From the NCBI RefSeq assembly GCF_003628535.1, contig NZ_RBCI01000001.1, positions 806,001 through 870,000 on the forward strand: a stretch of DNA of 64,000 nucleotides, given 5' to 3'. Both the position numbers and the translations under genes were made by a program. The notes below the pieces were generated by a model. That model did not search any database. It saw only the letters and a list, made by a program, of their open reading frames with translations, and was not told where the DNA came from. The stretch comes from Flavisolibacter nicotianae. Lineage in GTDB: Bacteria > Bacteroidota > Bacteroidia > Chitinophagales > Chitinophagaceae. Below, piece after piece: positions 3,961 through 63,484 of the stretch (positions are counted from its first letter, which is position 1; each line of letters opens with the position of its first letter).

Positions 3961-4078
3961 AGGATTTCACGAGTTTACCGGTTTAGGGGCTCCGGTGAAA
4001 AGAAGTCCTGAGGAGAATCAGTTCCGAAAACCAGCAACTTGTGAACGTATGAACTCGTGAACTTGCGAACTTTACACC
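3961..4078. repeat. Inverted 8-nt unit repeat element without ORF (GTGAAC type)
   Basis: This fills the gap from the lysozyme stop codon to the next start. The right arm (4029-4073) is a run of octamers of form NNGTGAAC, for example TTGTGAAC and TCGTGAAC. The left arm (3965-3990) carries the inverted form TTTCACGAGTTTACC. The same unit family occurs at 63359-63484. No terminator hairpin is visible inside. Confidence 0.7.
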
Positions 4079-4318
4079 ATGGACGAATACAACCAGGGCT
4101 GGGACCCGGAGGTAAAACAATACTTCCGAAAAATCATGAACTCGTTTGCCATGGGGGCACTTTGGCTGTTGCTGATCGGCCTTTCGGGCTTTGCGTTTAA
4201 GCTGGCCATCATCAAAGACAGCGTGCGCTGGTACAACCTTGTTTTTTACGGCGTGTTTCTCCTGAGCCTTTCGCTCTTGCTGTTGTTTTATTACCGCGTT
4301 TGGCGAAAGAACGGGTGA
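4079..4318 (+). CDS. Small two-helix membrane protein
   Basis: A 79-residue protein with a soluble N-terminus (DEYNQGWDPEVKQYFRKI) and two membrane helices at about residues 25-44 and 53-71, ending in a basic tail (RVWRKNG). I do not recognise a named family, though small proteins of this layout are common in Bacteroidota. It is convergent with the DUF4440-like gene, with stops only 6 bases apart. Function unknown. Confidence 0.7.
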   Translation: MDEYNQGWDPEVKQYFRKIMNSFAMGALWLLLIGLSGFAFKLAIIKDSVRWYNLVFYGVFLLSLSLLLLFYYRVWRKNG

Positions 4319-4324
4319 GTTTTC

Positions 4325-4747
4325 CTAGGAAGAATGATCGGCTACGATCACCCACCGGCCCTTGATTTTCCGGAGCAGCAGGTTGTAATGCCCGCTCAGG
4401 TCCCCGATCATTCGCTGCAGCATCCATTTGCCGACGACATAATAGTAATCCGCCGACAGTTTTTTCACCACCAGGATGTTGAAGGAAAGTTTGCCCATGG
4501 CGGTTGTGTCGGGATAGCTTTTTTGGTAATTGCGGAGTGTTTCCTGCCAGCCCCATTTCAGGCCATTCTTGCCGATGAACAGCAGGGAGTCGCTTTTCCA
4601 GTAGGTTTTCATAAATCCTTCCAGGTCGCCGTGGTTCCAGGCTTCGGTTTGCGCGGCAAGCAGCCCGCGGATTTTTTCCCCGTCGCTTTTTTGAGCACCG
4701 GCCAACAGCGACACAAAAAGAAAAAGCAGGAGCAGGCTTCTTTTCAT
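4325..4747 (-). CDS. Secreted SnoaL/DUF4440-like protein (NTF2 fold)
   Basis: Start at ATG 4747 gives 140 residues with a clear signal peptide (MKRSLLLLFLFVSLLAGAQ). The mature part matches the NTF2-like DUF4440 pattern: IRGLLAAQTEAWNHGDLEGF near the N-terminus, then SDSLLFIG and the closing GRWVIVADHSS. These cone-shaped domains serve as small-molecule pockets or enzymes, but the ligand is not predictable. The gene stands alone, divergent from the SCO1-Fur pair. Confidence 0.85.
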   Translation of the reverse strand: MKRSLLLLFLFVSLLAGAQKSDGEKIRGLLAAQTEAWNHGDLEGFMKTYWKSDSLLFIGKNGLKWGWQETLRNYQKSYPDTTAMGKLSFNILVVKKLSADYYYVVGKWMLQRMIGDLSGHYNLLLRKIKGRWVIVADHSS

Positions 4748-4773
4748 ACAAGGTCTTTTGAGCAAGATAGAGC

Positions 4774-4808
4774 AGATAATGGATATTGGAATATTGGGAT
4801 ATTGTATT
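4774..4808. repeat. Single arm of GATATTGG-type unit repeat
   Basis: The gap between divergent genes contains ATGGATATTGGAATATTGGG, a run of about 8-nt units. A two-armed version of the same unit sits at 41527-41590. Only one arm is evident here. Confidence 0.5.
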
Positions 4809-4886
4809 GCCCGGAGACAGCCGATTTGTGCGGGAAACCTGTTTAAAGCTCCTGTTAATCCTTCGCTTCGGCAGACGATCAGCGGT

Positions 4887-4894
4887 TAACTTTG
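4887..4894 (+). promoter_or_regulatory. Candidate -7 box of the SCO1-fur operon
   Basis: TAACTTTG matches the Bacteroidota -7 consensus TAnnTTTG exactly and lies 19 bases before the SCO1 start codon. A weak -33 element (TTCG near 4862) precedes it at about 21 bases. Confidence 0.5.
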
Positions 4895-4913
4895 CGTCAC
4901 AAGCATTTCCCGC

Positions 4914-5522
4914 ATGTCCAAAAAAACGGTCTTCTACATCGTCTTTTTCACCGTATTGGTCCTGGGCTTTTACGCGGCCCTTTCCTCGTCGATCCCGGGG
5001 TTCGGCAAAAAGCGTTTTCCGCCCATCACCAAGGTGGAACCGTTTGCCTTTACCAACCAGGACGGCCAGACGGTCACTAACGAAAACATTAAAGGCAAGG
5101 TGGCCGTGGTGAATTTTTTCTTTACCACCTGCACCTCGGTTTGTCCGCGCATGAACAACAACCTGAAAAACGTTTACGAAACGCTTCAAAACACACCGGG
5201 TGTGGTGTTTCTTTCCTTTACCTCCGACCCGGCCCGCGACTCGGCAGCCCGGCTGAAACACTATGCCGACTCGATGGGTGTGAATACGGCTAAATGGATT
5301 TTTCTCACGGGGCGCAAGGACAGCCTGTACAATGCTGCCCGCTACAGTTTCAAGGTCGACGACCCGGATAATTTTGCTGCTAACGAAGGCGTGGATTTTT
5401 TGCACACGCAGTTTGTTGCCCTGGTAAACAAAAAAGGTGAGGTGGTTAAAATTTATGACGGCATCAAACCGTCGGAGCTGCACGGCCTTCCTGCCGACGT
5501 TAAAAACCTGCTGAACGAATGA
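4914..5522 (+). CDS. SCO1/SenC family copper chaperone, membrane-anchored
   Basis: A 202-residue protein with an N-terminal anchor (residues 5-24) and a thioredoxin-fold domain. The copper-binding CTSVC motif is at Cys73 and Cys77 and the third ligand His164 is in FLHTQF. SCO proteins deliver copper to the CuA site of cytochrome oxidase or act as periplasmic thiol reductases. The gene overlaps the next one by 4 bases, so it is translationally coupled to a Fur-family regulator. That suggests metal-responsive control. No cytochrome oxidase genes are in the window. Confidence 0.93.
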   Translation: MSKKTVFYIVFFTVLVLGFYAALSSSIPGFGKKRFPPITKVEPFAFTNQDGQTVTNENIKGKVAVVNFFFTTCTSVCPRMNNNLKNVYETLQNTPGVVFLSFTSDPARDSAARLKHYADSMGVNTAKWIFLTGRKDSLYNAARYSFKVDDPDNFAANEGVDFLHTQFVALVNKKGEVVKIYDGIKPSELHGLPADVKNLLNE

Positions 5523-5962
5523 TGGAAACCAAAAGCACCACAACACGGCTGAACGATATTTTGCACCGCCGGCAGCTCAGCTCCACCGAAAGCCGGCGCA
5601 AAATCCTTTCGCTGTTTTTGAACAGCCACGATGCCCTGACACACGGCATCATTGAAAAAGAAGTGGGCGACAAATTCGACCGCGTGACCATCTACCGCAC
5701 CCTGCAAACCTTCGAGGAAAAAGGGATTGTTCACACCATTCCCACGGCCGACAACTCCGTGCTTTATGCCTTGTGCAAAGAGTGCGAGGAAGGCCATCAC
5801 CACGACGATCATGTGCATTTTATCTGCACCCGTTGCGAACGCACCATTTGCCTCGATGACGTGGTATCGCCGAAATTGGAATTGCCGGATGGCTATGTCA
5901 CCGACAGTGTGCAGGTAGTGATCCATGGAATTTGCAAAGACTGCTCGTCTGAACCGGGATAA
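5519..5962 (+). CDS. Fur family metal-responsive repressor
   Basis: A 147-residue protein whose ATG overlaps the SCO1 stop codon. The winged helix (residues about 15-75) includes the recognition region FDRVTIYRTLQTFEEKGIVH, the family signature. The C-terminal dimer and metal domain has the histidine cluster GHHHDDHVHF and two zinc Cys pairs, CTRC and CKDC. It could be a Fur, Zur or PerR subtype; these cannot be separated from sequence alone. Its coupling to a copper chaperone hints at control of copper, zinc or iron homeostasis. A perfect terminator follows at 6005. Confidence 0.93.
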   Translation: MMETKSTTTRLNDILHRRQLSSTESRRKILSLFLNSHDALTHGIIEKEVGDKFDRVTIYRTLQTFEEKGIVHTIPTADNSVLYALCKECEEGHHHDDHVHFICTRCERTICLDDVVSPKLELPDGYVTDSVQVVIHGICKDCSSEPG

Positions 5963-5964
5963 AT

Positions 5965-6100
5965 GTCTGAACCACCATTTGGTGGATCAAATTGATTAAG
6001 CCGGAAAAGCAAGAGGCGTTCTGTGATGAACGCCTCTTGCTTTTGAACGAAGATTTGATTTCATCTCCATCTTCAAAATCTCCTTCGAATCATGGTTCAG
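5965..6100. repeat. TCTGAACCATGATT inverted repeat element enclosing a terminator
   Basis: The left arm starts 2 bases after the fur stop with TCTGAACCACCATTTGG. The right arm, read on the minus strand from about 6100, starts TCTGAACCATGATTCG, and its TGA is the stop codon of the S9 peptidase. The arms share TCTGAACCA, GATT/CATT and GGA. The middle holds a 17-bp terminator. The same arms flank the GxxExxY gene at 16116-16596. Confidence 0.75.
6005..6044. terminator. Bidirectional terminator, fur / S9 peptidase
   Basis: AAAAGCAAGAGGCGTTC is followed by a 6-base loop and the exact 17-base reverse complement ending in TTTT. A-runs and T-runs on both sides suit both convergent genes. Confidence 0.93.
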
Positions 6101-10987: not shown

Positions 10988-11058
10988 GATGAATGGTGAA
11001 TGGTCAACGGTGAATAGGCAGACTTTTCTGCTTTGCACTATTCACTATTCATTCATCA
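10988..11058. repeat. Inverted 8-nt unit repeat element (GTGAATAG/GG type)
   Basis: The left arm contains GAATGGTGAATGG and GGTGAATAGG. The right arm carries the inverse CACTATTCACTATTCATTC and ends directly at the DUF5606 stop codon (11059). A related pair is at 24205-24320. No ORF inside. Confidence 0.7.
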
Positions 11059-11565: not shown

Positions 11566-11599
11566 AATCAAATTATTTGGGGCTGCAAGATAAGAAAGA

Positions 11600-11674
11600 G
11601 TAAGCAGTACGCAGTATGCAGCCGGCAGCCGGAGTTCTTTACTGCTTACCGCATACCGCCGACTGCCAACCGGT
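11600..11674. repeat. Inverted 7-nt unit repeat element (AGTANGC type)
   Basis: The left arm is a run of heptamers AGTACGC, AGTATGC and AGCCGGC. The right arm is the inverted set (ACTGCTTACCGCATACCGCC). It lies between divergent genes and encloses no ORF. Confidence 0.7.
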
Positions 11675-16125: not shown

Positions 16126-16596
16126 GATTTGGGTGGATTTATTGATTTAACGGAAATGGATTTTCTACAAACTTCAAATTCTCCAGCCGTTTGAATTGAA
16201 GGCTGATGCTGCCAAAGTTGATGAGCAGGCCGACCTGAATATTATAGGCTTCCAGGTAGTTTTTTGCTTGCGCCAGGTGAACGTTTTCCAATTGTGTGAT
16301 GGCTTTTAGCTCGACCATGATCTTATCCTCTACAAAAAAGTCAACCCTCCGTTCGCCAATGTTGTAGCCTTTGTAGTAAATAGGCATACTAAACTCTCTT
16401 TTGAAGCGAATGTTTTGCTCCTGTAATTCAATTTCCAGCGCTCGTTGGTAAATGACTTCCTGAAAGCCGTTTCCCAGGGCGGAATGCACTTTCATGGAAG
16501 CACCAATGATCTTTTCTGTGACTTCATGAAATTTATATGTTGCCATAACGATCAGTTTCCTGCTCATCCCAAAATCTCCCCAAATCATGGTTCAGA
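16116..16596. mobile_element. Repeat-bounded element carrying a GxxExxY ORF (TCTGAACCATGATT arms)
   Basis: The left arm (16116-16150) reads TCTGAACCATGATTTGGG then GGATTTATTGATTT. The right arm, on the minus strand from 16596, reads TCTGAACCATGATTTGGG then GAGATTTTGG. The first 18 bases are identical in both arms. The arm lies 3 bases past the polA stop codon at one end and contains the dsbA-like start codon at the other. It encloses one ORF. An ORF-less relative is at 5965-6100. Confidence 0.75.
16139..16546 (-). CDS. GxxExxY family protein
   Basis: Start at ATG 16546 (MATYKFHEVTEKI) gives 135 residues. The family signature is present as GNGFQEVIYQ (G-x2-E-x2-Y), followed by the conserved block RRVDFFVEDKIMVELKAI, which resembles a PD-(D/E)xK nuclease core (Asp, Glu-x-Lys). 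These are lone genes scattered through many genomes. Here it sits between inverted repeat arms, downstream of polA. Catalytic activity is plausible but unproven. A second, divergent member is at 45073. Confidence 0.9.
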   Translation of the reverse strand: MATYKFHEVTEKIIGASMKVHSALGNGFQEVIYQRALEIELQEQNIRFKREFSMPIYYKGYNIGERRVDFFVEDKIMVELKAITQLENVHLAQAKNYLEAYNIQVGLLINFGSISLQFKRLENLKFVENPFPLNQ

Positions 16597-24204: not shown

Positions 24205-24320
24205 TATTGTGAATAGACAATGGTGAATGGTGACAGAAATGCGTAATGAGCACTCGCTCATTCCACCGCCAACTGCCTGCCAGTAACTCCCCTTTCCTAT
24301 TGCCCATTCACCATTCACCC
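24205..24320. repeat. Inverted 8-nt unit repeat element (GTGAATGG type)
   Basis: The left arm has GTGAATAG and TGGTGAATGGTG, and the right arm has the inverse CCCATTCACCATTCACCC. No ORF or T-run is inside. It is a relative of the element at 10988-11058. Confidence 0.65.
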
Positions 24321-24436
24321 GGTGGGGATTTTCTTTTTCATTTCCCCAGATCGCTGCGTTTTTGCGCAGCATTTCTTCCAGCGCTCCGCCCGGCTGCTTA
24401 TGGCATGGAATTTTTCCTTTTGTATAAAAAGAGAGC

Positions 24437-26594: not shown

Positions 26595-27060
26595 GGATGT
26601 CAAACGTCAGACGAGAGACGGGAGACGTGAAACCAGTGAAACTTCAAACCAAACTATCGTTTAGATGTTTTGCATTAAGCCAAAAATCACTTCATGTGTA
26701 TGCAGCCGTACGAGAGCTGGTGAAAGAAGTTTCCTCGTTGACTATTCTGCTTCCCGAAAGAAAAATTTAATAGGCTGACGCAACTGCGAAGAGCAGCATT
26801 TTTAGTCAAACCAAATTTATCAGAAGCTGCTTCTCGAAAATCAGGTGCAGAACGAAACCGATTCGTTGAAGTAGCAAGAGGATCCGTAGTGGAAATAGAC
26901 GCGGCTATCGAAACGGCAGTTGATCTCGACTACTACAAACCTGAACAACTGCGCACTGTCGGCAAGCTCCTGAACAAGTGCTTTGCCATGCTGTCGAACT
27001 TGATAGAACGATAGGCGGCCTAAAGTTTCACGTCTGCCGTCTAGCGTTTTACATCCTCAC
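26591..27060. mobile_element. Heptamer inverted-repeat element with decayed four-helix-bundle ORF
   Basis: Both arms begin GTGAGGATGT and continue as 7-nt units of form GNNARAC (GTCAGAC, GAGAGAC, GTGAAAC). The left arm is 26591-26640; the right arm is 27025-27060 in inverse orientation. The TGA in each terminal GTGAGGATGT is the stop codon of the flanking gene (GYF_2 on plus, LytTR on minus). The enclosed ORF is a frameshifted relative of the one at 40271. Confidence 0.8.
26665..27014 (+). pseudogene. Four-helix-bundle (23S IVS-type) protein, frameshifted
   Basis: Translated in pieces, this region matches the intact protein at 40271-40624. One frame gives SQKSLHVYAAVRELVKEV and ILLPE; after a frame change it continues with QLRRAAFLVKPNLSEAASRK and then GAERNRFVEVARGSVVEIDA through to SNLIER and a stop. 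Compared with the intact copy there is a 2-base loss just after the ATG and another net frame change near 26768, followed by in-frame stops. The C-terminal two-thirds is nearly identical in sequence, so decay is recent. Confidence 0.88.
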
Positions 27061-28899: not shown

Positions 28900-28987
28900 G
28901 ATTGCCGTGAATGGAGAATCGCCAACCGCGAAGGAAAGATAACCAAAGGAAGGCTTCCGATTCGCGATTGACGATTGCCGTTTCACC
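28900..28987. repeat. Inverted 7-nt unit repeat element (GNNAATC type)
   Basis: The right arm on the minus strand reads as heptamers GGCAATC, GTCAATC and GCGAATC. The left arm is more diverged (GATTGCCGTGAATGG, then AGAATCGCC). It lies between the barrel gene and the histidine kinase on the same strand. No ORF. Confidence 0.6.
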
Positions 28988-28993
28988 GGTAGA

Positions 28994-35298: not shown

Positions 35299-35868
35299 AT
35301 GAAAAAGATTCTTTTCCTGGCAGCCGCTGTCGTTAGTTTAGTTGCCTTTACCACACCCAGCAACTGGAACAATGACGCTGCACACTCCAAACTGACCTTT
35401 ACCGTTACCCACCTTGGCATTTCAGACATATCGGGATTGTTCAAAAACTTTGATGTGAAGGTTGCCAACTCGAAAGATGATTTCAGCGATGCGGTGTTTG
35501 AGCTGAGCGCCGACGTAGCCTCTGTGAACACGGAAGTGGAGATGCGTGACAACCACCTGAAAAGCGCCGACTTTTTCGACGCAGAAAAGTACCCGAAGCT
35601 GACCTTCAAAAGCACGGGCATCAAGCCTGCCGGTAAAAACCAGTACAAGCTGACCGGTAACCTGACCCTGCACGGCATCACCAAACCGGTCACGATGGAC
35701 CTGCTGTACCGCGGCACGGTAGAAAACCCCATGTCGAAGAAACCCACATCCGGTTTCCAGGTGACAGGCACGATCAAGCGTTCTGATTTCGGTATCGGCG
35801 AAAAATTCCCGGCGCCCATGATCAGCGACGAAGTGCGCATCAAAGCCGATGGCGAGTTTACGAAATAG
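35299..35868 (+). CDS. YceI family periplasmic lipocalin-like protein
   Basis: A 189-residue protein with a cleavable signal peptide (to about residue 20). The YceI domain shows WNNDAAHSKLTFTVTHLGIS, EMRDNHLKSADFFDAEKYP and a C-terminal ISDEVRIKADGEF. YceI proteins form an elongated beta-barrel that binds polyisoprenoids such as quinones. That fits the preceding DoxX and nitroreductase genes and suggests a quinone-related stress operon. Its TAG stop overlaps the start of a repeat arm. Confidence 0.94.
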   Translation: MKKILFLAAAVVSLVAFTTPSNWNNDAAHSKLTFTVTHLGISDISGLFKNFDVKVANSKDDFSDAVFELSADVASVNTEVEMRDNHLKSADFFDAEKYPKLTFKSTGIKPAGKNQYKLTGNLTLHGITKPVTMDLLYRGTVENPMSKKPTSGFQVTGTIKRSDFGIGEKFPAPMISDEVRIKADGEFTK

Positions 35869-35948
35869 TGAACACGTGAGACGAGAAACGTGAAACAAGG
35901 GAAATATTGATGACAATGTGAACTCCTGTTTCACGTTTGACGTCTCAC
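35868..35948. repeat. Compact heptamer inverted-repeat element without ORF (GTGARAC type)
   Basis: The left arm holds heptamers GTGAGAC, GAGAAAC and GTGAAAC starting at the YceI stop. The right arm read on the minus strand has GTGAGAC, GTCAAAC and GTGAAAC, followed by AGGAG. Units match the arms of the elements at 26591 and 40225. Only about 30 bases separate the arms. Confidence 0.75.
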
Positions 35949-35984
35949 TTTCTTAAGCCTGCAAGGCTGGTATGGCACTGAAGT

Positions 35985-38227: not shown

Positions 38228-40228
38228 ATGATGAGAAGCTTGATGCTCCTCTTTTTTTGCTTTTTGTGTTCGGCCCTGTGGGCACAGTCTGTCTGTACAG
38301 CGCCGGGGCAAAACCCTTCCACTGCTTTTCCTGTGTGCGGCACCAGTACCTTTGCACAGGCTTCGGTTCCTATTTGCGGCGGTCGCCGGATGCCGTTCAA
38401 AAGTTGCGGCAACGACCTGCTCACAGATGTCAATCCGTTCTGGTATAAGTTCACCTGTTTTCAAAACGGCACACTGGGCTTTTTAATTACCCCGCTCGAC
38501 CTGAACGAAGACTACGATTGGGAGCTTTACGATATCACCAACCGCAATCCCGATGATGTTTATACCGATGCCAGCCTGGTGGTCAGTAATAACTGGAGCG
38601 GTGAATATGGAGAAACCGGCGCCTCGTCGGCCGGCACACAACTTTTTGTTTGCGGCGGCGACGGCAAGCCTCTTTTCAGCCAGCGGCCGCAGTTGATAGC
38701 CGGGCACAACTACCTCCTGCTGGTCAGCCATTTTTCCCAAACGCAAAGCGGCTACAAGCTGTCCTTTGGCGGCGGTACGGCCGTGATCACGGACTCCACA
38801 GAACCGCACCTGAAAAAGGTGGAGGCCAATTGCGGCGGCGACCTGCTTGCACTCAAGCTCAGTAAAAAAATGCGCTGCGCAAGCGTTGCCGGCGACGGTT
38901 CCGAGTTTTACCTCACGCCGGCTGTTACAACAGTGAAAAGCAGCGTTGGTATTGGGTGCACACAACAGTTCGACACCGATTCGCTGCAGTTGAAACTGGC
39001 CGCCCCGCTGCAACCCGGCACGTATACGCTGCACATTAAAAAGGGCACCGACAACAACACGATACTCGATTACTGCGACCGGCCGGTTGCCGAAACCGAA
39101 ACACTCAGCTTTACCATTCTGCCCAAAGCCCCGACACCGATGGACAGCCTGGCACCACTTTCCTGTGCACCTGCTGCGCTCCACCTCATTTTTTCCAAGC
39201 CGATTCTTTGTTCCAGTTTTGCTGCCGACGGTTCGGAGTTTACCATCAACGGCACGTACCCGGTTTCAATAACGGGAGCCACGGGGAGTTGCGCCAACGG
39301 GAGCACCAAAGAAATTGTGGTGAGCCTTGCACAGCCGCTGCAAAAGGCCGGAACATTCCAGGTGGTTTTGAAAAAAGGAGCCGACGGCAATACGCTGCTC
39401 GACGAATGCGGCGAAGAAACGCGGGTGGGTTCGGCGCTTTCGTTTTCCGTGAAGGACACGGTGAATGCAGACTTTACCTACACCATTTTTTACGGCTGTG
39501 AAAAAGATGCGGTGGCGTTTCAGCATCCCGGCAACGGCGTAAGCCAGTGGACATGGAACCTCGACGAATCGCAGCAAAGCAGTCTGCAAAACCCCCAAGC
39601 GAACTATACTCTCTTCAACCAGCCGAAGGCAGTCAAGCTGGTAGTGAGCAACGGCTTTTGCAGCGACACGGCGGAACAGATCATCACGCTGGAAAATTTC
39701 CTGAAGGCCGATTTTTCCGTTTATGGAGACAACTGCCCGAACGAAGCGGTTCCGTTCACCAGTGCGGCAGAAGGAAAGATCATTGCGCACAACTGGTCTT
39801 TTGGCGATGGCACCACGGCTTCGGAAAAAGATCCTACACACGTTTACGCGGCGCCTTACCAGCAAACGTCCTATACGGTTCGCTACACGGTGACGGATAC
39901 GTACGGCTGCCAGCAAACGGCAGAAAAAAAGATTACCGTTTATCCCAGCTGCTATCTCACCGTGCCCTCGGCCTTTACACCCAACGGCGATGGCCGCAAC
40001 GACCTGTTTCGTGTGCTCAATGCCATCAAGGCCGAAAACCTGGAACTGCTCCTTTTCAACCGCTGGGGACAACTGGTTTACAAAACCAGCAACTGGAAAC
40101 AGGGCTGGGACGGAAAGATCAACGGCCAGCCGCAGCCCACCAGTGTGTACGTATGGTTTCTTCGCTATACCGACAGGAATACCAAAAAGAAAATCGAGCA
40201 AAAGGGAACGGTGACGCTGGTCAGGTGA
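38228..40228 (+). CDS. PKD-containing surface protein with T9SS type B sorting domain
   Basis: Start at ATG 38228 gives 666 residues with a signal peptide (to about SALWAQ). The middle holds Ig-like repeats with paired Cys (YCDRPVAETETLSFTI and similar). Two PKD-like domains follow (FQHPGNGVSQWTWNLDES; AEGKIIAHNWSFGDGTTASE). The C-terminal domain SAFTPNGDGRNDLFRVLN through LLFNRWGQLVYKTSNWKQGW is the gliding-motility-associated type B sorting signal. It would be secreted by the type IX system to the cell surface. The TGA stop coincides with a repeat arm. Ligand unknown. Confidence 0.93.
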   Translation: MMRSLMLLFFCFLCSALWAQSVCTAPGQNPSTAFPVCGTSTFAQASVPICGGRRMPFKSCGNDLLTDVNPFWYKFTCFQNGTLGFLITPLDLNEDYDWELYDITNRNPDDVYTDASLVVSNNWSGEYGETGASSAGTQLFVCGGDGKPLFSQRPQLIAGHNYLLLVSHFSQTQSGYKLSFGGGTAVITDSTEPHLKKVEANCGGDLLALKLSKKMRCASVAGDGSEFYLTPAVTTVKSSVGIGCTQQFDTDSLQLKLAAPLQPGTYTLHIKKGTDNNTILDYCDRPVAETETLSFTILPKAPTPMDSLAPLSCAPAALHLIFSKPILCSSFAADGSEFTINGTYPVSITGATGSCANGSTKEIVVSLAQPLQKAGTFQVVLKKGADGNTLLDECGEETRVGSALSFSVKDTVNADFTYTIFYGCEKDAVAFQHPGNGVSQWTWNLDESQQSSLQNPQANYTLFNQPKAVKLVVSNGFCSDTAEQIITLENFLKADFSVYGDNCPNEAVPFTSAAEGKIIAHNWSFGDGTTASEKDPTHVYAAPYQQTSYTVRYTVTDTYGCQQTAEKKITVYPSCYLTVPSAFTPNGDGRNDLFRVLNAIKAENLELLLFNRWGQLVYKTSNWKQGWDGKINGQPQPTSVYVWFLRYTDRNTKKKIEQKGTVTLVR

Positions 40229-40692
40229 GGACGTGAGACGTCAGACGTGAAATGTGAAACTGTTGGCCGCCTATCGTTCTATCATGTTCGACAGCATGGC
40301 AAAGCACTTGTTCAGGAGTTCGCCGACAGTGCGCAGTTGTTCAGGTTTGTAGTATTCGAGATCAACTGCCGTTTCGATAGCCGCGTCTATTTCCACCACC
40401 GACCCTCTCGCTACTTCAACGAATCGGTTTCGTTCTGCACCTGACTGCCGGCTGGCGCCTTCGGCCAAATTGAGCTTAACGGAAAGCACCGCTCTTCGTA
40501 ATTGGGGTACCATATTGAATTTCTCCTCGGCAGGGAGAAGATGAGTGATTGCATAAACTTCTTTTGTCAGTTCCCGAATGGCCGTATACACATGAAGCGA
40601 TTTGTGACTCAGATGTAAAAACATATAGCGAGAGGTTTTGGTTTACAGGCTCTCCTGTTTCACGTCTACCGTCTCTCGTCTCACATCCTCAC
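40225..40692. mobile_element. Heptamer inverted-repeat element carrying an intact four-helix-bundle ORF
   Basis: The left arm starts GTGAGGACGTGAGACG and continues as 7-nt units (GTCAGAC, GTGAAAT, GTGAAAC). The right arm on the minus strand starts GTGAGGATGTGAGACG and continues GAGAGAC, GGTAGAC, GTGAAAC. The terminal TGA in each arm is the stop codon of the flanking gene: the T9SS protein on plus and the LuxR regulator on minus. It has the same design as 26591-27060. Confidence 0.82.
40271..40624 (-). CDS. Four-helix-bundle protein (23S rRNA IVS family)
   Basis: A 117-residue all-helical protein. Conserved family text: HKSLHVYTAIRELTKEVYAI, QLRRAVLSVKLNLAEGASRQ, and SGAERNRFVEVARGSVVEID, then ELLNKCFAMLSNMIER. 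The family (TIGR02436) was first seen in intervening sequences of 23S rRNA and is related to the bAvd protein of diversity-generating retroelements. It has no known enzymatic motif and is thought to bind nucleic acid. It is the only ORF in a repeat-bounded element. A frameshifted close relative is at 26665. Confidence 0.93.
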   Translation of the reverse strand: MFLHLSHKSLHVYTAIRELTKEVYAITHLLPAEEKFNMVPQLRRAVLSVKLNLAEGASRQSGAERNRFVEVARGSVVEIDAAIETAVDLEYYKPEQLRTVGELLNKCFAMLSNMIER

Positions 40693-41526: not shown

Positions 41527-41590
41527 TGGAGATATTGTGATATTGGTGGCAGATACTATCCCCCTATCTTACTATCCCAATATCCTGCTT
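41527..41590. repeat. Inverted 8-nt unit repeat (GATATTGG type)
   Basis: The left arm has GGAGATATTGTGATATTGG and the right arm inverted CTATCTTACTATCCCAATAT. No ORF is enclosed. A single arm of the same unit is at 4774-4808. Confidence 0.6.
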
Positions 41591-43836: not shown

Positions 43837-45039
43837 TTAGGCCGACCAGATTTTCACCAGCGATACCCAACCCATATAACTCATGGCGGCCACCACCAGC
43901 CAGCCAGCCACCTGCATCCACAGCGGGTGCGAATAATTTTTCATCAGGCGCTTTTGCGTTGCCGCTACTAAAATGATGGCCAGCGCAATGGGAAGGATCA
44001 ACCCGTTGACCGCACCGGCCAGGATGAGCAGCTCTTTTGGCTTTCCGACCGCGACAAAAATGAGTGTTGTCAGGACGATGAAAACCGAAATGCACCAACG
44101 TTCGTGGCGTTCGAAGACCGGGTGAAATGTTTTGAAGAACGAAACCGACGTATACGCCGCACCGACAACAGAAGAAATGGCCGCACTCCACAGGACCACG
44201 CCAAAAATGCGCAGGCCAACCTGTCCGGCCGCTGAGGCAAAAACGGTGGCGGCCGGGTTATCCTTGTCGAGTGAAACCCCTTTTTGCACCACACCCACAA
44301 TCGCCAGGAAAAGAATAAAACGCATGAGGGTGGAAATGATCACGCCACTGACGGCACTGCGGTCGATGGTACGGATGTTTTCTTTGCCCTTGATGCCGGC
44401 ATCCAGCAAGCGGTGTGCTCCGGAGAAGGTGATATAGCCGCCCACTGTTCCGCCCACAATGGTTACGATGGCGGTGGCACTGATCTGTTCCGGAAGAAAG
44501 GTGTGATGGACGGCCTGGGCCAGGGGCGGATGCGCTGCAAATGCAATGATCAGTGTCAGCAGGATTTTCAGGGTGCCGAGGATCTTGGTAAACCCATCCA
44601 GCATTTTTCCCACTTCTTTGATCCAGAACAGCACGAGGGCTACGACACAACTGATAACTGCACCCTGCTCAAAGGACAGTCCTGTCAGAACATTGACACC
44701 CAGGCCACAACCGGCGATGTTACCAATATTGAATGCGAAGCCGCCGATGATCACCAGGAAGGAAAGAAAATAACCTAAACCGGGGAGCAATTGATTGGAA
44801 AGATCCTGTGCCCGCAATTCGCTCATCGTCAGAACACGCCAGGTATTGAGCTGTGCGCCGATATCCAGTAAGACGGAAACGAGAATGACAAAGCCGAAGC
44901 TTGTCAACAGTTGCTGTGTAAAGACACTGGTCTGTGTAAGAAAGCCCGGGCCGATCGATGAATTGGCCATGAGGAAAGCCGCTCCCAAACTGGCGCCGCT
45001 GAAGAAATGTTTTTTCAATTGTTTATTTTTTTGAACCAC
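43837..45039 (-). CDS. Nramp-family transporter lacking metal ligands (5-oxoproline cluster)
   Basis: A 400-residue protein with about eleven membrane helices. Canonical Nramp TM1 has DPGN; here the aligned text is SIGPGF, so the metal-binding Asp and Asn are gone. TM6 should have a Met-Pro-His; here it is GGTVGGYITF. Divalent metal transport is therefore unlikely. Members next to pxpA (such as Bacillus YcsG) are presumed transporters of 5-oxoproline or a related compound. The start is uncertain: the GTG at 45039 lies in the repeat-element arm CCGTGGTTC; a TTG at 45018 is an alternative. Confidence 0.85.
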   Translation of the reverse strand: MVQKNKQLKKHFFSGASLGAAFLMANSSIGPGFLTQTSVFTQQLLTSFGFVILVSVLLDIGAQLNTWRVLTMSELRAQDLSNQLLPGLGYFLSFLVIIGGFAFNIGNIAGCGLGVNVLTGLSFEQGAVISCVVALVLFWIKEVGKMLDGFTKILGTLKILLTLIIAFAAHPPLAQAVHHTFLPEQISATAIVTIVGGTVGGYITFSGAHRLLDAGIKGKENIRTIDRSAVSGVIISTLMRFILFLAIVGVVQKGVSLDKDNPAATVFASAAGQVGLRIFGVVLWSAAISSVVGAAYTSVSFFKTFHPVFERHERWCISVFIVLTTLIFVAVGKPKELLILAGAVNGLILPIALAIILVAATQKRLMKNYSHPLWMQVAGWLVVAAMSYMGWVSLVKIWSA

Positions 45040-45500
45040 GGAGACACAGGGGCACGGAGGATCACAGAGGGTTTATAAAATCATCCGCTTCATTCCATTT
45101 TTCATCAGTGGTGTGTGAAAGTTCAGGATATAACCTAAACGTTTATTGGTTAGTTTGAGATAACTCAGCAACTGTGCTTCCCACACAGGATGCGGGTTTT
45201 CTTGCGCCTTTAATTCAAGGATAACCAAATCATCAACCAGTATGTCAACACGCAGGGCATCTTCGATCACCAATTCATGGTATACAATGGCAACAGCCTT
45301 TTGTCTTTGATATGAAATGTTGCGCTTTGCCTGTTCAAAGCAAAAGATCTTTTCATAAACACTTTCCAGCAAACCCGGACCTAAGGCCTGATGAATGGTA
45401 ATAGCAATACTTACGATCTGCTCTGCCAGCCATTTCTCCCGTTCGGTCAAAGGAGTGAAGGTTCTCTCTGTGTTACCTTGTGTCATTGTGCCTCCGTGGC
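45035..45500. mobile_element. Octamer inverted-repeat element with GxxExxY ORF, inside the pxp operon
   Basis: The left arm (45035-45072) is CCACGGAGACACAGGGG and similar 8-nt units of CACGGAGN/CACAGAGN. The right arm (45461-45500), on the minus strand, starts CCACGGAGGCACAATGAC and ends CACAGAGAGAAC. The arms match at most positions of the CACGGAG/CACAGAG blocks. The pxpA stop codon and the ORF start overlap (ATGA) inside the right arm; the transporter GTG start is in the left. Confidence 0.82.
45073..45486 (-). CDS. GxxExxY family protein
   Basis: A 137-residue protein. The signature is GPGLLESVYEK (G-x2-E-x2-Y), followed by ALRVDILVDDLVILELKAQE, a PD-(D/E)xK nuclease-like core, and GYILNFHTPLMKNGMKRMIL. 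The start codon overlaps the pxpA stop (ATGA) and the first residues (MTQGNTER) are encoded by repeat-arm DNA. It is distantly related to the protein at 16139. In this operon it is an intruder: pxpA and the transporter are normally adjacent. Activity unknown. Confidence 0.9.
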   Translation of the reverse strand: MTQGNTERTFTPLTEREKWLAEQIVSIAITIHQALGPGLLESVYEKIFCFEQAKRNISYQRQKAVAIVYHELVIEDALRVDILVDDLVILELKAQENPHPVWEAQLLSYLKLTNKRLGYILNFHTPLMKNGMKRMIL

Positions 45501-47961: not shown

Positions 47962-48003
47962 GACGATCAAAAATACGCTTCTGCCAGTTGTTTTTTAGCG
48001 TAC

Positions 48004-48345
48004 GAATGCCATCCCTTGAAGAGATGGCATTCTTTCTGCACACCTGCGTTCCGAACGTTGAACGGAGCCCTTCCTTCGTCAGGATAAACTGTGCAACGGG
48101 AGCTTCATGGCTATTCTGTTGTTGGTTACAAAAAAATATTGCGCTTCTACAGAGATTTGTTCACTTCTCTATGAACATTTTCTATTAACAGGATGCCCCT
48201 CCGGGGCAAAAGAAAATGCTGTTGGCAAAGACGCCAACGGCAGCAAAAGCCTCCATCAAAAAGAATGATGAAGGCTTTGTAGTATCGTGCGTAAGCGAGT
48301 CTTGCGCTTGAATCATCCCTCCACTGGAGGGCCGGGGTGAGGTTT
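48004..48345. repeat. Modular hairpin repeat array, copy 2
   Basis: From the left: hairpin GAATGCCATC..GATGGCATTC (48004-48032); TTCCGAACGTTGAA (about 48049-48062); a CCCCTCCGGGG palindrome (48195); GCTGTTGGC/GCCAACGGCAGC (48220-48245); AAAGCC..GGCTTTGTAGTATCGTGC then AAGCGAG (48246-48299); CCCTCCACTGGAGGG (48317). The order matches 2925-3140. The AAAGCC hairpin is followed on the minus strand by TTTTG and may serve as the feoB terminator. Confidence 0.7.
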
Positions 48346-52296: not shown

Positions 52297-52731
52297 ATGA
52301 AACTGACCCTGGACAACAAGGATTTAACAGATGGTTTCTTTGAAGAAACCAGGCTGCTGGGCATCATGGCGCCGATCAAGGACTACCTGTTTTGCTGGCA
52401 GGTCAACCAGCTGATGGGTGTCGATTTCCGTGCGAACAACGAACTGGAAATTCAACTGAACAAAAAAGGCCGCAGCTATTTTTTCTCCCTTTATGAATAT
52501 GCCCAGCCGTCCACCTGCCTGATGCATTACCTCTACAACAACCACCACGACGGCGAATACCTGCTGCCCGAATTCAAGCACCTGGATTTTTTGTGGCTGT
52601 TGAAAGATGATTACGTAACCGATGAATTCGTGGACAATTTGATCTATTCCCTGAAGTCCATTAATGGCGTGCAACTGGTGGTGGAACTGACAAACGAAAA
52701 GATCAGGAACAAAGAGCACCTGGTGTTTTAA
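52297..52731 (+). CDS. IPExxxVDY family protein
   Basis: A 144-residue protein of the Bacteroidota-specific IPExxxVDY family. The signature appears in degenerate form as LLPEFKHLDFLW. The N-terminus has FFEETRLLGIMAPIKDYLFC and QVNQLMGVDFRANN, as in other members. No catalytic residues are recognisable and the function is unknown. It follows the M28 gene by 16 bases, suggesting co-transcription. A repeat-bounded element separates it from the pterin dehydratase gene. Confidence 0.82.
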   Translation: MKLTLDNKDLTDGFFEETRLLGIMAPIKDYLFCWQVNQLMGVDFRANNELEIQLNKKGRSYFFSLYEYAQPSTCLMHYLYNNHHDGEYLLPEFKHLDFLWLLKDDYVTDEFVDNLIYSLKSINGVQLVVELTNEKIRNKEHLVF

Positions 52732-53230
52732 TGCGATAATGTGCAAATATGAAAATGTGAAAATGGTTTGAGCGCTGTCTTCTTTACAAAACAAAACCAT
52801 CTCATATGCACACCGATTTAATTGAAAGAAACCCTGTCCTCAAGCACAGTTTTGACTTAGCTCTGAAAGTGATTGCGTATTGCGATTTACTACAGGAACA
52901 AAAGCATTTCATTATTTCCAACCAGTTACTCAAAAGCGGAACCTCGGTTGGAGCCAATGTCATGGAAGCACAAAATGCAGAAAGCAAAGCTGACTTTATT
53001 CACGAAATGAAAGTTGCTGCAAAGGAAGCTGAGGAAACACAGTATTGGTTGATACTTTGCAAGTTTTCGAACAACTATCCTCCGTGTGACGAGCTCCTTT
53101 TCAAACTGAATGAAATTCACAAACTGTTGGGCAAAATTTTAGCAACATCCAAAAGAAAAAATCCATTCAACTACCTTTTGAGCTATTCCATTTTCTGATT
53201 TTCCCATTTTCAAATTTTCACATTTACCTT
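52732..53230. mobile_element. Octamer inverted-repeat element with four-helix-bundle ORF (GAAAATNN type)
   Basis: The left arm (52737-52768) reads AATGTGCAAATATGAAAATG then GAAAATGG. The right arm (53188-53226) on the minus strand reads as octamers GAAAATTT, GAAAATGG, GAAAATCA, GAAAATGG. The left arm starts at the IPExxxVDY stop; the right ends at the pterin dehydratase ATG. It encloses one ORF, unrelated in sequence to that at 40271 except for family. Confidence 0.78.
52806..53198 (+). CDS. Four-helix-bundle protein (23S rRNA IVS family)
   Basis: A 130-residue all-helical protein. Family features: [20 protein letters not shown], the [20 protein letters not shown] block typical of TIGR02436, [20 protein letters not shown] and [13 protein letters not shown]. 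The last residues (YLLSYSIF) run into the repeat arm, which also supplies the stop codon. It is a more typical member than the one at 40271 and clearly divergent from it. The function of the family is unknown; nucleic-acid binding is suspected. Confidence 0.93.
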
Positions 53231-53461
53231 ATGTGGCAAGAAACCAACAACGCCCTGTACCGCAAATTCGAGTTCAGGGATTTCAGCGAAGCGTTTGCGT
53301 TTATGACAAGAGTGGCCCTGGCAGCCGAAAAGATGAACCACCACCCGCGGTGGACCAACGTGTGGAATACCGTGGAAGTCTGGCTTAACACCCACGATGC
53401 CGGAGACGTGGTAACAGAAAAAGACAGGAAGCTGGCGGAAAAGATTGATGCGCTGCTTTAA
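53231..53461 (+). CDS. phhB: 4a-hydroxytetrahydrobiopterin dehydratase
   Basis: A 76-residue short-form pterin-4a-carbinolamine dehydratase. The signature [20 protein letters not shown] with two adjacent His is intact, followed by [20 protein letters not shown]. It regenerates the pterin cofactor of aromatic amino acid hydroxylases or, in other bacteria, helps molybdopterin systems. No hydroxylase is nearby. The gene ends convergently with selD, the two TAA codons sharing the palindrome TTAA. Confidence 0.93.
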
Positions 53462-54519: not shown

Positions 54520-55662
54520 TTATGAAACAACTTGAGCCTGCGAAAGTAGGACAGCATTTTTCTCCGTGACGGTTTCGCAGGGAATTTTTGTAAGAAGGGT
54601 GGAAAGTTCTTCGCGGTTGTGCAGGCCTTTCAGGTAGTGCTTGTCGTAATAACTGAGGAGGATGCGAAAGCACTCCGTGTAATTTTCCTCTGCTAAAAAC
54701 CGCAACGCATTTTTGGTTTCCAGCCCGCCCAGCCGTTTTTTGATTCGCTCAATGGCGTCCGCTAATTTTTCCTTGCTGCACTGGCTGTATTCTTCGGTAA
54801 TGTGCTTTAGCCGTTCTTCAAACGGAATTTCAAGGAAATAAAGCGGGGAGGTTCGCATGGCCTGCCACAACGAGTTGGGAAGATTGACCGTTCCGATTCG
54901 CTGGCTTTCATCTTCGAGCCAGATGGACGGGTTTGGAGTTTGGAGTTTGGGGTTTGGAGTTGTCTCCGGTTCATCTTTCAGCACGGGCCATTCGCCTGGC
55001 TCTTGGCTCACGGCTCGCAGCTCATGGCTTAACAAGTTTTCAAACATCTCTTGTGTAGGCTGCGGCGGCATGTTGATGTTGCCAAAAGCGGAGCCTTTGT
55101 GCGAGGCGACGCTTTCCAGGCAGATCACTTTTTCGCCCATGGCCCTGAGTTCCTGCAACACTTCCGTTTTCCCGGAGCCGGTATAGCCACCGAGGATTTT
55201 AAAATTATACGGTTGTTCAAACGTCTTCAGCACATGGTTGCGAAAGGCCTTGTAGCCGCCGGTCAGAACCGTCACGTTAAACCCATAAAGGTTCAGCAAC
55301 CAGCCAATGGCGCCGCTGCGCATGCCGCCCCGCCAGCAGTAGAGAAATATGCGATTCGCAATTGGCAATTGACCATTGGCATCTTTGCTTATGGCCTGTT
55401 GCCTGCTGCTAAGTAAAGCCTCTACCTGCTCCACCATCGGCCGCATCTTCGGGCCAAAATAATCGAGCCCGATCTTTATCGCCGCCTGCCGGCTCACCTG
55501 TTTATAGGTCGTGCCGACAACCTTTCGCTCTTCGTCCGTAAACAGCGGGAAACTGATGGCGCCGGGAAGGTGGGCATGGTTGTACTCGGCCGGGGAACGC
55601 ACATCGAGCAGCAATGCATCATTGCAGCCTTCCAAAAACTCGTGAATGGCAACTCGCCTCAT
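54520..55662 (-). CDS. mnmH: tRNA 2-selenouridine synthase, with in-frame repeat insertions
   Basis: Start at ATG 55662 gives 380 residues. The rhodanese domain (residues 1-140) has catalytic Cys109 in FLYCWRGGMRS. The P-loop domain has GGYTGSGKTEV near residue 158 and WLEDESQRIG. It exchanges sulfur for selenium at the tRNA wobble uridine. Two stretches are foreign to the family: residues about 86-104, before the Cys, and about 212-245, before WLEDES. Both are encoded by 7-nt repeat arrays inserted in frame. Domain cores remain intact, so the enzyme may still work. Confidence 0.95.
   Translation of the reverse strand: MRRVAIHEFLEGCNDALLLDVRSPAEYNHAHLPGAISFPLFTDEERKVVGTTYKQVSRQAAIKIGLDYFGPKMRPMVEQVEALLSSRQQAISKDANGQLPIANRIFLYCWRGGMRSGAIGWLLNLYGFNVTVLTGGYKAFRNHVLKTFEQPYNFKILGGYTGSGKTEVLQELRAMGEKVICLESVASHKGSAFGNINMPPQPTQEMFENLLSHELRAVSQEPGEWPVLKDEPETTPNPKLQTPNPSIWLEDESQRIGTVNLPNSLWQAMRTSPLYFLEIPFEERLKHITEEYSQCSKEKLADAIERIKKRLGGLETKNALRFLAEENYTECFRILLSYYDKHYLKGLHNREELSTLLTKIPCETVTEKNAVLLSQAQVVS
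54929..55030. repeat. Heptamer arrays inserted in the mnmH coding sequence (site 2)
   Basis: On the minus strand one block reads GAGCTGC, GAGCCGT, GAGCCAA, GAGCCAG and a second reads AACTCCA, AACCCCA, AACTCCA, AACTCCA. They are separated by about 30 bases. Both keep the frame open and encode Arg/Ser/Glu and Thr/Pro/Asn text absent from the family. Confidence 0.75.
55351..55413. repeat. Heptamer arrays inserted in the mnmH coding sequence (site 1)
   Basis: On the minus strand: AGGCAAC, AGGCCAT, AAGCAAA, then GCCAATG, GTCAATT, GCCAATT, GCGAATC. The stretch encodes the extra residues just before the catalytic-Cys strand. Confidence 0.7.
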
Positions 55663-55751
55663 GCAAACAAAAGTATTCAAAATACAGGCGCACCGGCGGG
55701 CCTTTCGCTCCATGCTTTAGCCCATCGCAAAGCAATTCGCTTGGCTGCAAT

Positions 55752-58947: not shown

Positions 58948-58972
58948 AGCTGTCTCGTTTGGCGAGACAGCT
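58948..58972 (-). terminator. Terminator of the lipoprotein gene
   Basis: AGCTGTCTCG, 5-base loop, CGAGACAGCT; on the minus strand it is followed by seven T. It lies 60 bases past the stop at 59033. Confidence 0.92.
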
Positions 58973-59032
58973 CCTAGTGTCGTTTCTGCAGTAAAGGTAC
59001 TAACCTGGTTGCTGCATTGCGAAGAAGAAGGC

Positions 59033-59650: not shown

Positions 59651-59741
59651 AATTGTTCAATTTGTTTCAGCTTGGAAATACAAAAATGAGACCACAGCAG
59701 CCTCAATGGGCAATTGGCAACGGCAAATGAGCAGAAAAGGA

Positions 59742-59779
59742 AATAGGCCAAGAAGAAAATGATTTCTTCTTGGCCTATT
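59742..59779. terminator. rho terminator
   Basis: AATAGGCCAAGAAGAAA and its exact 17-base complement surround the loop ATGA, 24 bases past the rho stop. T-rich on the minus strand. Confidence 0.9.
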
Positions 59780-59803
59780 GCAAATTGTTTCTTACCGGTT
59801 GGC

Positions 59804-61501: not shown

Positions 61502-61873
61502 AGAAAAATGGTATTTAATCTGCTAATCAAGCCCAGATGCGGTTAACGTTTGCTAATTTTCTGCTTGGGAATTGTTTGAAACAACCGGTGTTGTGAGTGA
61601 TTGGGATATGAGCTCTCAACGGTTTCCGGTGCAAGTTTAGGGAGAAATGGGCAAAAGCGAAAAAAATTTTTACTGTCCTGACGCTGGCCGCATGCGGTGG
61701 TTGCAAGCCTTTCTTCTCTTTGTGTTCCGCTAAAACGTGCCGACAAACCGGTGCCACACCTGCCACACCGCCCTCTTCTTTTTTAACAATTCCGGTTGAG
61801 GAACCAGGAAAAATCCACCGGTGAAAAGCTGAGGCCAGTTCCGCACCAATCTATACGCCTTACCAAAGCAGGT

Positions 61874-61903
61874 TTTGCCATCGCAGCCGGCAGTTTATAT
61901 TTG
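61874..61903 (+). promoter_or_regulatory. asnS promoter (TTTG-N18-TAtaTTTG)
   Basis: TTTG at 61874-61877 and TATATTTG at 61896-61903, with 18 bases between, match the Bacteroidota -33/-7 consensus fully. The -7 box ends only 6 bases before the ATG, so the transcript should start at or just before the start codon. Confidence 0.7.
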
Positions 61904-61909
61904 CACCCT

Positions 61910-63358
61910 ATGTTTAACAAACGAATCAAGATCAAAGAGCTTCTTGCCACCGAACCGCAAGAACAGCAAGTGACCGTTATGGGTTGGGTGCGCACCTTTC
62001 GCAACAACCAGTTTGTGGCGCTGAATGATGGCTCTACCAATAATAACCTGCAGGTGGTGATGGAACTGGGAAAGTATGACGAGAGTTTTCTGAAACGCAT
62101 CACCACGTCGGCTTCGCTGAAAGTGACCGGCACCCTGGTCGAATCATTGGGCAAAGGACAAAAAGTAGAAGTAAAGGCGACCGAGGTCGAGATCCTTGGC
62201 GACAGCGACGCAGAGGCGTATCCCCTGCAACCCAAAAAACACAGCCTGGAATTTTTGCGGGAAAAAGCGCACCTGCGCTTTCGCACCAACACCTTCAGCT
62301 CCGTGTTTCGCGTTCGCCACTCGCTGGCCTTTGCGGTGCATAAATTCTTTAACGAAAAAGGATTCTTTTACCTCCACACGCCGATCATCACGGCAAGTGA
62401 TGCGGAAGGCGCCGGTGAAATGTTCCGCGTCTCGACATTGCCGTTTGACAATCCGCCCCGCAAAGAAGACGGTAGCATTGATTTTGCCGACGACTTTTTT
62501 GGCCGTGCTACGAACTTAACCGTGAGCGGACAACTCGAAGGCGAATTGGGTGCCACCGGCCTTGGCGACATTTATACCTTTGGTCCCACGTTCCGTGCGG
62601 AAAATTCCAATACGGCCCGTCACCTGGCGGAGTTCTGGATGATTGAACCGGAGATGGCCTTCTGCGATCTGGAAGACAACGCCAACCTGGCCGAGGAATT
62701 CATCCAGTACATCATCCGCTACGTAATGGAAAACAATGCGGACGACCTGGAGTTCCTTCGCCAGCGTCTCCTGGAGGAGGAGAAAGCAAAACCGCAAACA
62801 GAACGTAGCGAATTGGACCTGATTCAAAAACTGCAGTTTGTGGTTGACAACAAATTCGAACGCATTACCTATACCGAGGCGATCGATATCCTGCTGCAAT
62901 CGAATCACTACAAAAAGAAAAAATTCCAGTACGATGTGAAATGGGGCATCGACATGCAGAGCGAACACGAACGCTACCTGGTGGAAAAGCATTTCAAAAA
63001 GCCGGTGATCGTGACCAATTATCCTGCTGCCATCAAGGCGTTTTACATGCGCCAGGATGAGGGCTGCGAACCGGGAAAAGAAACGGTGGCTGCCATGGAT
63101 ATTTTAGCTCCCGGCATTGGAGAAATCGTCGGCGGCTCGCAACGCGAAGAGCGTTACGACAAGCTCACCGAACGCATGAAGGCGATGCACGTACCGGCCG
63201 ATGAATTGTGGTGGTACCTCGATACACGCCGCTTTGGTACCGTGCCGCATGCCGGCTTTGGCCTCGGCTTCGAACGCATGGTGCAGTTTGTGACCGGTAT
63301 GGGCAACATCCGCGATGTGATCCCTTTTCCACGAACACCGAAGAATGCGGAGTTTTAA
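61910..63358 (+). CDS. asnS: Asparaginyl-tRNA synthetase
   Basis: Start at ATG 61910 ([12 protein letters not shown]) gives 482 residues, standard length; the frame extends upstream but the promoter lies within that extension. The N-terminal OB-fold anticodon-binding domain holds [20 protein letters not shown]. The class II core has motif 2 [16 protein letters not shown] and motif 3 [12 protein letters not shown]. It charges tRNA-Asn directly with asparagine. An ORF-less repeat element with the terminator inside follows. Confidence 0.98.
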
Positions 63359-63484
63359 ACTTTTACACGTTTACCGGTTTATTTGTGCACAAGTTAAAAG
63401 AGAGGAATGCAATCATTCCTCTCTTTTATTTTTAGTAGCGACAACTTGTGAACCAGTGAACGTGTGAACTGGTGAACTTCCTTC
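63359..63484. repeat. Octamer inverted-repeat element enclosing the asnS terminator (GTGAAC type)
   Basis: The right arm is octamers ending in GTGAAC: TTGTGAAC, CAGTGAAC, GTGTGAAC, TGGTGAAC. The left arm carries the inverse (ACACGTTTACCGGTTTA). It fills the gap between the stop codons of the convergent asnS and universal stress protein genes. The same unit is at 3961-4078. Confidence 0.75.
63396..63427. terminator. asnS terminator inside repeat element
   Basis: AAAAGAGAGGAATG, loop CAAT, CATTCCTCTCTTTT: a perfect 14-bp stem with A/T tails suited to both convergent genes. Confidence 0.92.

Follow-up and report, generated by a model that had tools for sequence, protein, structure and literature searches.

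A 64,000-nucleotide stretch of the Flavisolibacter nicotianae genome (contig NZ_RBCI01000001.1, positions 806,001 to 870,000; here called the window) raises the question of why many of its intergenic gaps are filled with tandem arrays of 7- or 8-nucleotide (nt) units in inverted orientation, and why the unit differs from one gap to the next. Our analysis points to small, apparently mobile intergenic elements with mirror-image ends built from 7- or 8-letter words, representatives of a widespread kind of mobile DNA that had not been connected up until now. A complete element has a unit array at each end, the second usually inverted relative to the first, and between them a short gene whose product, annotated as "23S rRNA-intervening sequence protein" (IVP), is an Avd-like four-helix bundle. 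Two shuffle tests were applied, one for self-match and one for inverted repeats, and each of the 12 gaps listed in the first-pass annotation passed one or both, so its claim of inverted arrays in a dozen gaps is borne out. Self-match at 7 or 8 nt gave p ≤ 0.02 at 11 of the 12 (the exception, at 45035, gave p = 0.056) and the inverted-repeat test gave p ≤ 0.03 at 11 of the 12 (the exception, at 3961, gave p = 0.076). With a strict array threshold of at least 18 matches out of 24 at one lag, the window contained seven regions at lag 7 and five at lag 8, compared with averages of at most 0.1 in shuffled sequence and zero regions at lags 4 to 6 and 9 to 12. This threshold detects 7 of the 12 gaps; the arms at 10988, 28900, 35868, 41527, and 45035 are shorter.

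The same scan over 464 kb of the 6.09-Mb genome (the window plus C1:1-200000 and C2:100001-300000) gave 33 arrays at lag 7 and 11 at lag 8, 44 in all, against 0.8 and 0.4 expected under a second-order Markov null. The C2 stretch was picked after the IVP search and has several IVP loci inside, so this density does not come from a random sample; our guess for the whole genome is several hundred arrays. Lag 6 gave six arrays and lags 9, 11, and 12 gave three, one, and three, all coding, and lags 14, 15, and 16 gave three, six, and eight (14 is twice 7, and 16 twice 8). The description of the arrays as intergenic holds for 29 of the 33 lag-7 and 9 of the 11 lag-8 arrays (38 of 44), where intergenic DNA is about 11% of the sequence, but additional, unlisted arrays lie inside the mnmH coding sequence (54925 to 55381). 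The elements of the window are as follows, with open reading frame abbreviated as ORF, inverted repeat as IR, and the strand given where one was assigned.

3961 to 4073: ORF-less array of the 8-nt unit NNGTGAAC with a weak left arm; the unit matches that of resident IVP locus L003 at 0.93.
10988 to 11058: ORF-less hairpin, 7-nt unit GTGAATR (IR p ≤ 0.003; 13 of 16 matches at lag 7).
11598 to 11670: ORF-less hairpin, 7-nt unit GCAGTAY and its complement (self-match scan, shuffle tests).
24205 to 24321: ORF-less hairpin, 7-nt unit GTGAATG (self-match scan, shuffle tests).
26596 to 27060, plus strand: element with an IVP remnant (ORF incomplete), unit GNNARAC, arms 26596-26634 and 27025-27060; its other copy is at 40228-40692.
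28900 to 28990: ORF-less hairpin, 7-nt unit GNNAATC (shuffle tests).
35868 to 35956: ORF-less hairpin, 7-nt unit GNNARAC (shuffle tests).
40228 to 40692, minus strand: GNNARAC element with an intact IVP ORF, 40271-40624 (117 amino acids), arms 40228-40261 and 40657-40692.
41527 to 41590: ORF-less hairpin, 8-nt unit GATATTGN (IR p = 0.030; lag 8 p = 0.020).
45036 to 45500, minus strand: element with the GxxExxY ORF 45073-45486 and short 8-nt arms of CACGGAGN (IR p ≤ 0.003; lag p = 0.056).
52729 to 53229, plus strand: element with the IVP ORF 52806-53198 (130 amino acids) and 8-nt arms of GAAAATNN, 52729-52766 and 53188-53229.
63350 to 63480: ORF-less element with 8-nt arms, 63350-63382 and 63443-63480, flanking a hairpin that looks by eye like a terminator.

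The single architecture with many unit sequences and two ORF families thus stands, and the units at 10988 and 24205, previously read as 8 nt, have a period of 7 in the shuffle-test scan. The ORFs at 40271-40624 and 52806-53198 belong to PF05635/TIGR02436, the IVP family, and that at 45073-45486 to GxxExxY (TIGR04256). PF05635 has 17 matches in this genome, 15 of them above the cut-off (1 of the 15 only with its neighbour in frame). IVP was found in 112 of the 147 family genomes searched and in none of 14 control genomes; GxxExxY was found in 39 of 60 genomes, and 3 of the 14 controls show sub-cut-off matches. The structure predicted for the 40271-40624 protein (predicted local distance difference test score of 93, from a 31-sequence alignment) resembles 2GSC, an IVP of Xanthomonas campestris (template modelling [TM] score of 0.91, E = 4e-7), and 2RLD (TM 0.83), and both of these entries contain five chains. 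It also resembles Avd, from diversity-generating retroelements (4DWL, TM 0.78, E = 0.06), and chains of the retroelement ribonucleoproteins 8UBE and 8UB7 (TM 0.73 to 0.79). The likeness to Avd is by fold alone, as the IVP sequence scores 20 bits against an Avd model with a cut-off of 80 bits; PF05635 and Avd are described as homologous in the accessible part of PMC10053308, and the Xanthomonas IVP as a homopentamer in that of PMC4990558. A possible rule matching unit number to ring size, with five units to an arm and five subunits to a ring, was rejected: the median is 5.14 units in 7-nt arms (n = 78) and 4.5 in 8-nt arms (n = 18), while arm length is 36 bp at both periods and is steadier than unit number, which leaves the rule unsupported. 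The TRAP ring binds RNA triplets, and a ring protein gripping a tandem array would, by analogy, be an attractive picture, but the unit number does not settle on five.

The arrays and the IVP genes go together well beyond the window. We collected 87 IVP loci, comprising 17 from this genome (remnants included), the 30 best scoring, and 40 chosen from the family genome list. Strict 7- or 8-nt arrays flank the gene on both sides in 41 of the 87 and on at least one side in 68, with the discount that several of the 87 are remnants, that L015 and L016 overlap, and that L046, L049, L056, and L064 were read in the wrong frame (these four belong to an 81-locus arm set but lie outside the 64 loci matched in it, and are excluded from the test of unit against protein described below). 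Among the best 80 named IVP loci from a scan of species genomes, arrays were on both sides in 43 and on at least one side in 69, and the named loci listed come from Bacteroidota, Cyanobacteria, Chloroflexota, Acidobacteria, Planctomycetota, Verrucomicrobiota, Clostridia, Fibrobacter, and one Methanophagales archaeon, with many metagenome bins. The baseline is 27 of 1,794 ORFs of at least 100 amino acids with arrays on both sides, at least 1 of those 27 being an IVP gene. Of 156 usable IVP loci, 106 had arrays on both sides, and in 90 of the 106 these were inverted. When the unit of an array on one side was compared with the opposite side, it beat all 20 shuffles in 96 of 101 tests. The first-pass annotation had the purine-rich strands facing inward; this is a trend (the inward strand has more G than C in 97 of 114 IVP loci, with a mean purine content of 0.58) but not a rule. 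All four of the cyanobacterial plasmid IVP genes inspected have heptamer arrays on both sides. On Pseudanabaena plasmid pPg_01, the IVP gene lies between cas6 and cas4, with long heptamer arrays in the same direction on both sides. Two near-identical viral contigs (L284 and L286) carry an IVP locus, and in one of them part of the IVP region is duplicated in tandem. The GxxExxY loci appear, judged partly by eye, to be a parallel and weaker version with shorter arms and 8- or 9-nt units.

The unit follows the protein. Among the 114 of the 156 loci with matched arms, compared as same-period pairs with the two periods mixed, the unit was shared by 100, 79, and 56% of pairs at protein identities of at least 80, 70 to 80, and 60 to 70% (n = 13, 33, and 81), and by 12, 6, 4, 3, 1, and 1% at 55 to 60, 50 to 55, 45 to 50, 40 to 45, 30 to 40, and below 30%. 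At 55% identity or more, 94 of 214 same-period pairs shared the unit, against a mean of 9.5 and a maximum of 22 in 1,000 permutations. The arms were more alike than shuffled sequence (0.63 versus 0.54, 0.73 versus 0.59, and 0.81 versus 0.60 at 55 to 65, 65 to 75, and 75 to 90% protein identity), their conservation was equal to or above that of the coding sequence, and left and right arms were kept equally (0.883 and 0.876). The stretch from arm to start codon was at the shuffled level below 75% protein identity (0.55 versus 0.56, n = 60; 0.59 versus 0.59, n = 13) and at 0.66 versus 0.61 at 75 to 90% (n = 7). In one pair (L044 and L051), 87% identical over the whole alignment, about 64 bp comprising the left arm and the gene start are identical. 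Because the neighbouring leader is not kept, linkage alone explains the tie between unit and protein poorly. Most simply, the unit would be under selection and would change along with the protein, and recognition by each IVP of its own unit would be the simplest cause of the tie. The idea that the arrays share a generating mechanism rather than a common descent goes too far: within protein clades the units are inherited, so that descent is present, with turnover of the unit.

Many arrays have no gene, and the same units recur in them. The units of resident IVPs match 19 of the 37 ORF-less arrays in the 464 kb, whereas same-sized unit sets from other genomes match 4.0 ± 1.9 (maximum of 9 in 300 draws; hairpin arms counted separately). 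In relatives such as G009 and G021, a single unit recurs in several dispersed hairpin pairs. The first-pass annotation had looked to empty orthologous gaps for support, and such gaps were found, alongside occupied and decayed ones. At the gap at 52732-53225, compared in 13 relatives, G154 has the full element and G159 a decayed remnant; arrays of a GCTAATNN-like unit are present in G160 and G155, a hairpin of another 7-nt unit in G161, and a short 7-nt run in G147. The remaining seven have no array (lags 5 to 10 were scored in six of them; in the seventh, G153, the gap is 21 bp). At 45035-45499, compared in four relatives, the element is present in G154, the gap is array-free in G004 and G156 (44 and about 75 bp), and G152 has other content. 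At 40226-40689, both relatives compared have array arms without the gene, chimeric in G154 and nested with a second unit in G152. For an IVP site outside the window (L246), 512 bp between matching flanks correspond to 78 bp in G040. Judged from alignments, the two GNNARAC element copies of this genome, and likewise L004 with L010 and L014, are alike through arms and interior, the likeness fading in the flanks. Sites orthologous to L245 and L261 had no collinear match in G130, the L244 site in G040 holds an unrelated stretch of about 235 bp, and between the close species with L243 and L242 homology ends near the left arm, as if rearranged, and the right arm differs by many units. These comparisons support gain and loss, and there are also older arms inside which the gene has decayed. 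Terminal inverted repeats, small size, dispersal, and presence or absence at orthologous sites are features of miniature inverted-repeat transposable elements, and all four are found here.

We consider it very probable that the arrays belong to families of dispersed elements and are not neutral repeats. The account of them that we favor, with a modest degree of confidence, is that of mobile elements encoding an Avd-like protein that recognises the element's own tandem units at either end. An IVP ring would bind, in DNA, the unit arrays typical of its clade at the two ends, and the bound protein would mark the element for copying into further gaps, acting in cis and, where the copy lacks an ORF, in trans. 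The ORF-less copies would then be derivatives of complete elements, and the number of units would shift afterwards by slippage. We infer the binding, its DNA target, and the movement itself from the patterns described above. DNA as the target is favored because the arms are neither mirrored nor G·U compatible in their changes, because loci with direct arms exist, and because the two arms are equally conserved, which is more than a 5' RNA-binding site alone would need.

Several observations weigh against this account. The net charge of IVP is only about +2, and we know of no catalytic domain in the protein. The pairs in the unit-protein comparison are not independent, and the permutation ignores the tree. 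DNA outside the arms also exceeds the shuffled level (0.55 versus 0.49 at 65 to 75% and 0.65 versus 0.51 at 75 to 90% protein identity), which means that some of the closer pairs are orthologous insertions and not separate ones. Of the 106 two-sided loci, 8 have direct arrays, 6 have different units on the two sides, and 2 fit either way. Strict arrays are few at the GxxExxY genes (among 34 loci, lag 8 in one left and one right flank, lag 9 in one left and four right). Resident units leave 18 of the 37 ORF-less arrays unmatched. Array density follows IVP number only weakly (Spearman 0.42, p = 0.07) in a sample of 19 genomes, 100 kb each, picked for long contigs and IVP number; G004 and G119, with 14 and 11 IVPs, have one array each per 100 kb. 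In that sample runs of N inflate the counts of G083 (true count 8) and of G055 (probably by one per lag, inferred from its 100 N). Finally, target-site duplication is unreadable, since the compared gaps have diverged too far.

The arms may instead act in RNA, pairing in the transcript as in the intervening sequences (IVSs) of 23S rRNA, with RNase III or IVP acting on the stem and the hairpin making the insertion tolerable. The 23S IVSs share the protein family, with a PF05635/S23p ORF in the loop of inverted arms. The Coxiella IVS is excised by RNase III and bears GACAGAT heptamers, two or three in tandem plus a degenerate one in the accessible text of PMC4990558. Arrays are also rarer in divergent gaps (2 of 50 versus 29 of 177, p = 0.03). 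Pairing of the arms in RNA was nevertheless rejected, because the positions that vary in one arm do not mirror those in the other (1 of 64 loci with permutation p < 0.05; mean p of 0.62) and G·U-compatible changes are not favored (79 versus 91). The 8 direct-arm loci among the 106 could not form such a stem, and none of the 80 named loci had an rRNA match in flanks of up to 800 bp, so the idea that some of these 80 are themselves 23S IVSs was rejected. Unlike those IVSs, the elements here are intergenic, with arms that are unit arrays, many unit families per genome, and ORF-less copies. We regard an RNA-level element as unlikely.

That polymerase slippage made neutral 7- and 8-nt repeats, in which IVP genes chanced to settle, is quite improbable in our judgement. 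A heptamer excess is known and was ascribed to slippage (Mrazek 2007, as discussed in the accessible part of PMC4679880), and close species differ by many units in both of the aligned array pairs. Slippage would leave unexplained why the unit is tied to the protein clade, why it is the same on both sides and inverted in 90 of 106 loci, and why ORF-less arrays match resident units; moreover, the seven sampled genomes with no or one IVP have 0 to 4 arrays per 100 kb, near the null. The arrays could also be sites, scattered over the genome, at which a chromosomal regulator binds, as was proposed for the paired octamers and heptamers of Geobacter metallireducens, where a similar architecture was termed "predicted global regulator binding sites" in the part of PMC2700814 available to us. 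A genome here has several unrelated units, however, many of them the units of IVPs inside such elements, and relatives have array-free orthologous gaps, so we give this explanation very little credence. The least probable explanation, to our mind, is templated synthesis, in which both 3' ends of a break would be extended with the unit by a reverse transcriptase or telomerase-like activity, leaving the same G-rich strand inward at the two ends. It would fit the geometry and the strand bias (97 of 114), and Avd is known from the literature as a partner of the reverse transcriptase in diversity-generating retroelements. A search with the RVT_1 model alone gave no match in this genome, which is 100% complete, or in 11 of 19 relatives, including G021, where there are 20 arrays per 100 kb, and the IVP-rich G027 and G029; on this absence, for one domain model, a reverse transcriptase was rejected as the maker of the arrays, and the elements differ from diversity-generating retroelements in the same respect.

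Recognition by an Avd-like protein would also connect several systems that have been described separately. In the literature searched, with most subscription journals and all bioRxiv preprints outside its coverage, we found no described element class that fits, as the first-pass annotation had suspected, and no link of unit arrays to the protein. The published accounts, as far as their accessible parts go, each cover one corner: the heptamers or octamers, the inverted pairs, the IVS, or the protein (PMC2700814, PMC4679880, PMC4990558, PMC2670836, PMC4692102, PMC8934634, PMC10910872, and PMC10053308). The short tandemly repeated repetitive (STRR) heptamers of cyanobacteria are likewise tandem 7-nt units in intergenic gaps; in the available portion of PMC2670836 they are presented as repeats of unknown function without a link to IVP. 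The heptamers GGGAATC of Xanthomonas and GGGGA(C/T)T of Nostoc form inverted convergent pairs, 70 of them in one Xanthomonas genome and 75 in another, and are under-represented in divergent gaps, but their authors generally saw no association with mobile elements (accessible part of PMC4692102). The GGGAATC pairs and the solved IVP, XCC0516, come from the same species. Multicopy classes 1 to 3 of Geobacter metallireducens have tandem 7- or 8-nt units (about 8 or 9 in class 2) on opposite strands, with variable spacing in classes 1 and 2; they were interpreted as regulator sites, and no protein gene is linked to them in what is available of PMC2700814. More tentatively, we can picture a superfamily in bacteria and some archaea in which a transposase-free, Avd-like ring protein recognises clade-specific 7- or 8-nt end words, with STRRs, the Xanthomonas GGGAATC pairs, the Geobacter octamer pairs, and 23S IVSs as members or footprints; this is a real possibility, although we would not yet lean toward it. 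A protein gene framed by repeats, together with dispersed ORF-less copies, is also the arrangement of REPIN/RAYT systems. Repetitive extragenic palindromes (REPs) and REPINs are built on a single imperfect palindrome and not on tandem 7- or 8-nt arrays, and the protein here is not a RAYT transposase.

The remaining features of the window include the three arrays inside mnmH (54520-55713).

54925 to 54965, minus strand: heptamer array GTTTGGR, in frame and read as TPNPKLQTPNP (array scan, protein annotation).
54993 to 55023: third and weaker heptamer array (array scan).
55347 to 55381, minus strand: second heptamer array, of the CAATTGG type (array scan).

Among six aligned mnmH orthologues, TPNPKLQTPN is present in one, a remnant in one, and neither in four. 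A second GxxExxY gene, near 16187-16525, has imperfect inverted repeats on either side, without 7- or 8-nt arrays. A repeat of about 330 bp at 48002-48331 has more than 10 further partial or full copies in the genome at 77 to 84% identity, and the palindrome at its edge, ATGCCATCCCTTGAAGAGATGGCAT, has a near copy at 2933-2961. Beside selD, at 53224-53460, up to about 240 bp of DNA is kept at 72 to 80% in most of the genus members compared and has no tRNA or Rfam match; an Rfam search of the whole window likewise gave zero matches.

If the recognition of units by IVP is true, it would give one account of the heptamer excess in bacteria, of the cyanobacterial STRRs, and of the origin of 23S IVSs. 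It would also provide a function for two common protein families that carry no annotation beyond "four helix bundle protein" and "GxxExxY protein". The elements would then amount to a naturally occurring set of proteins matched with words, which could be used to work out a recognition code.

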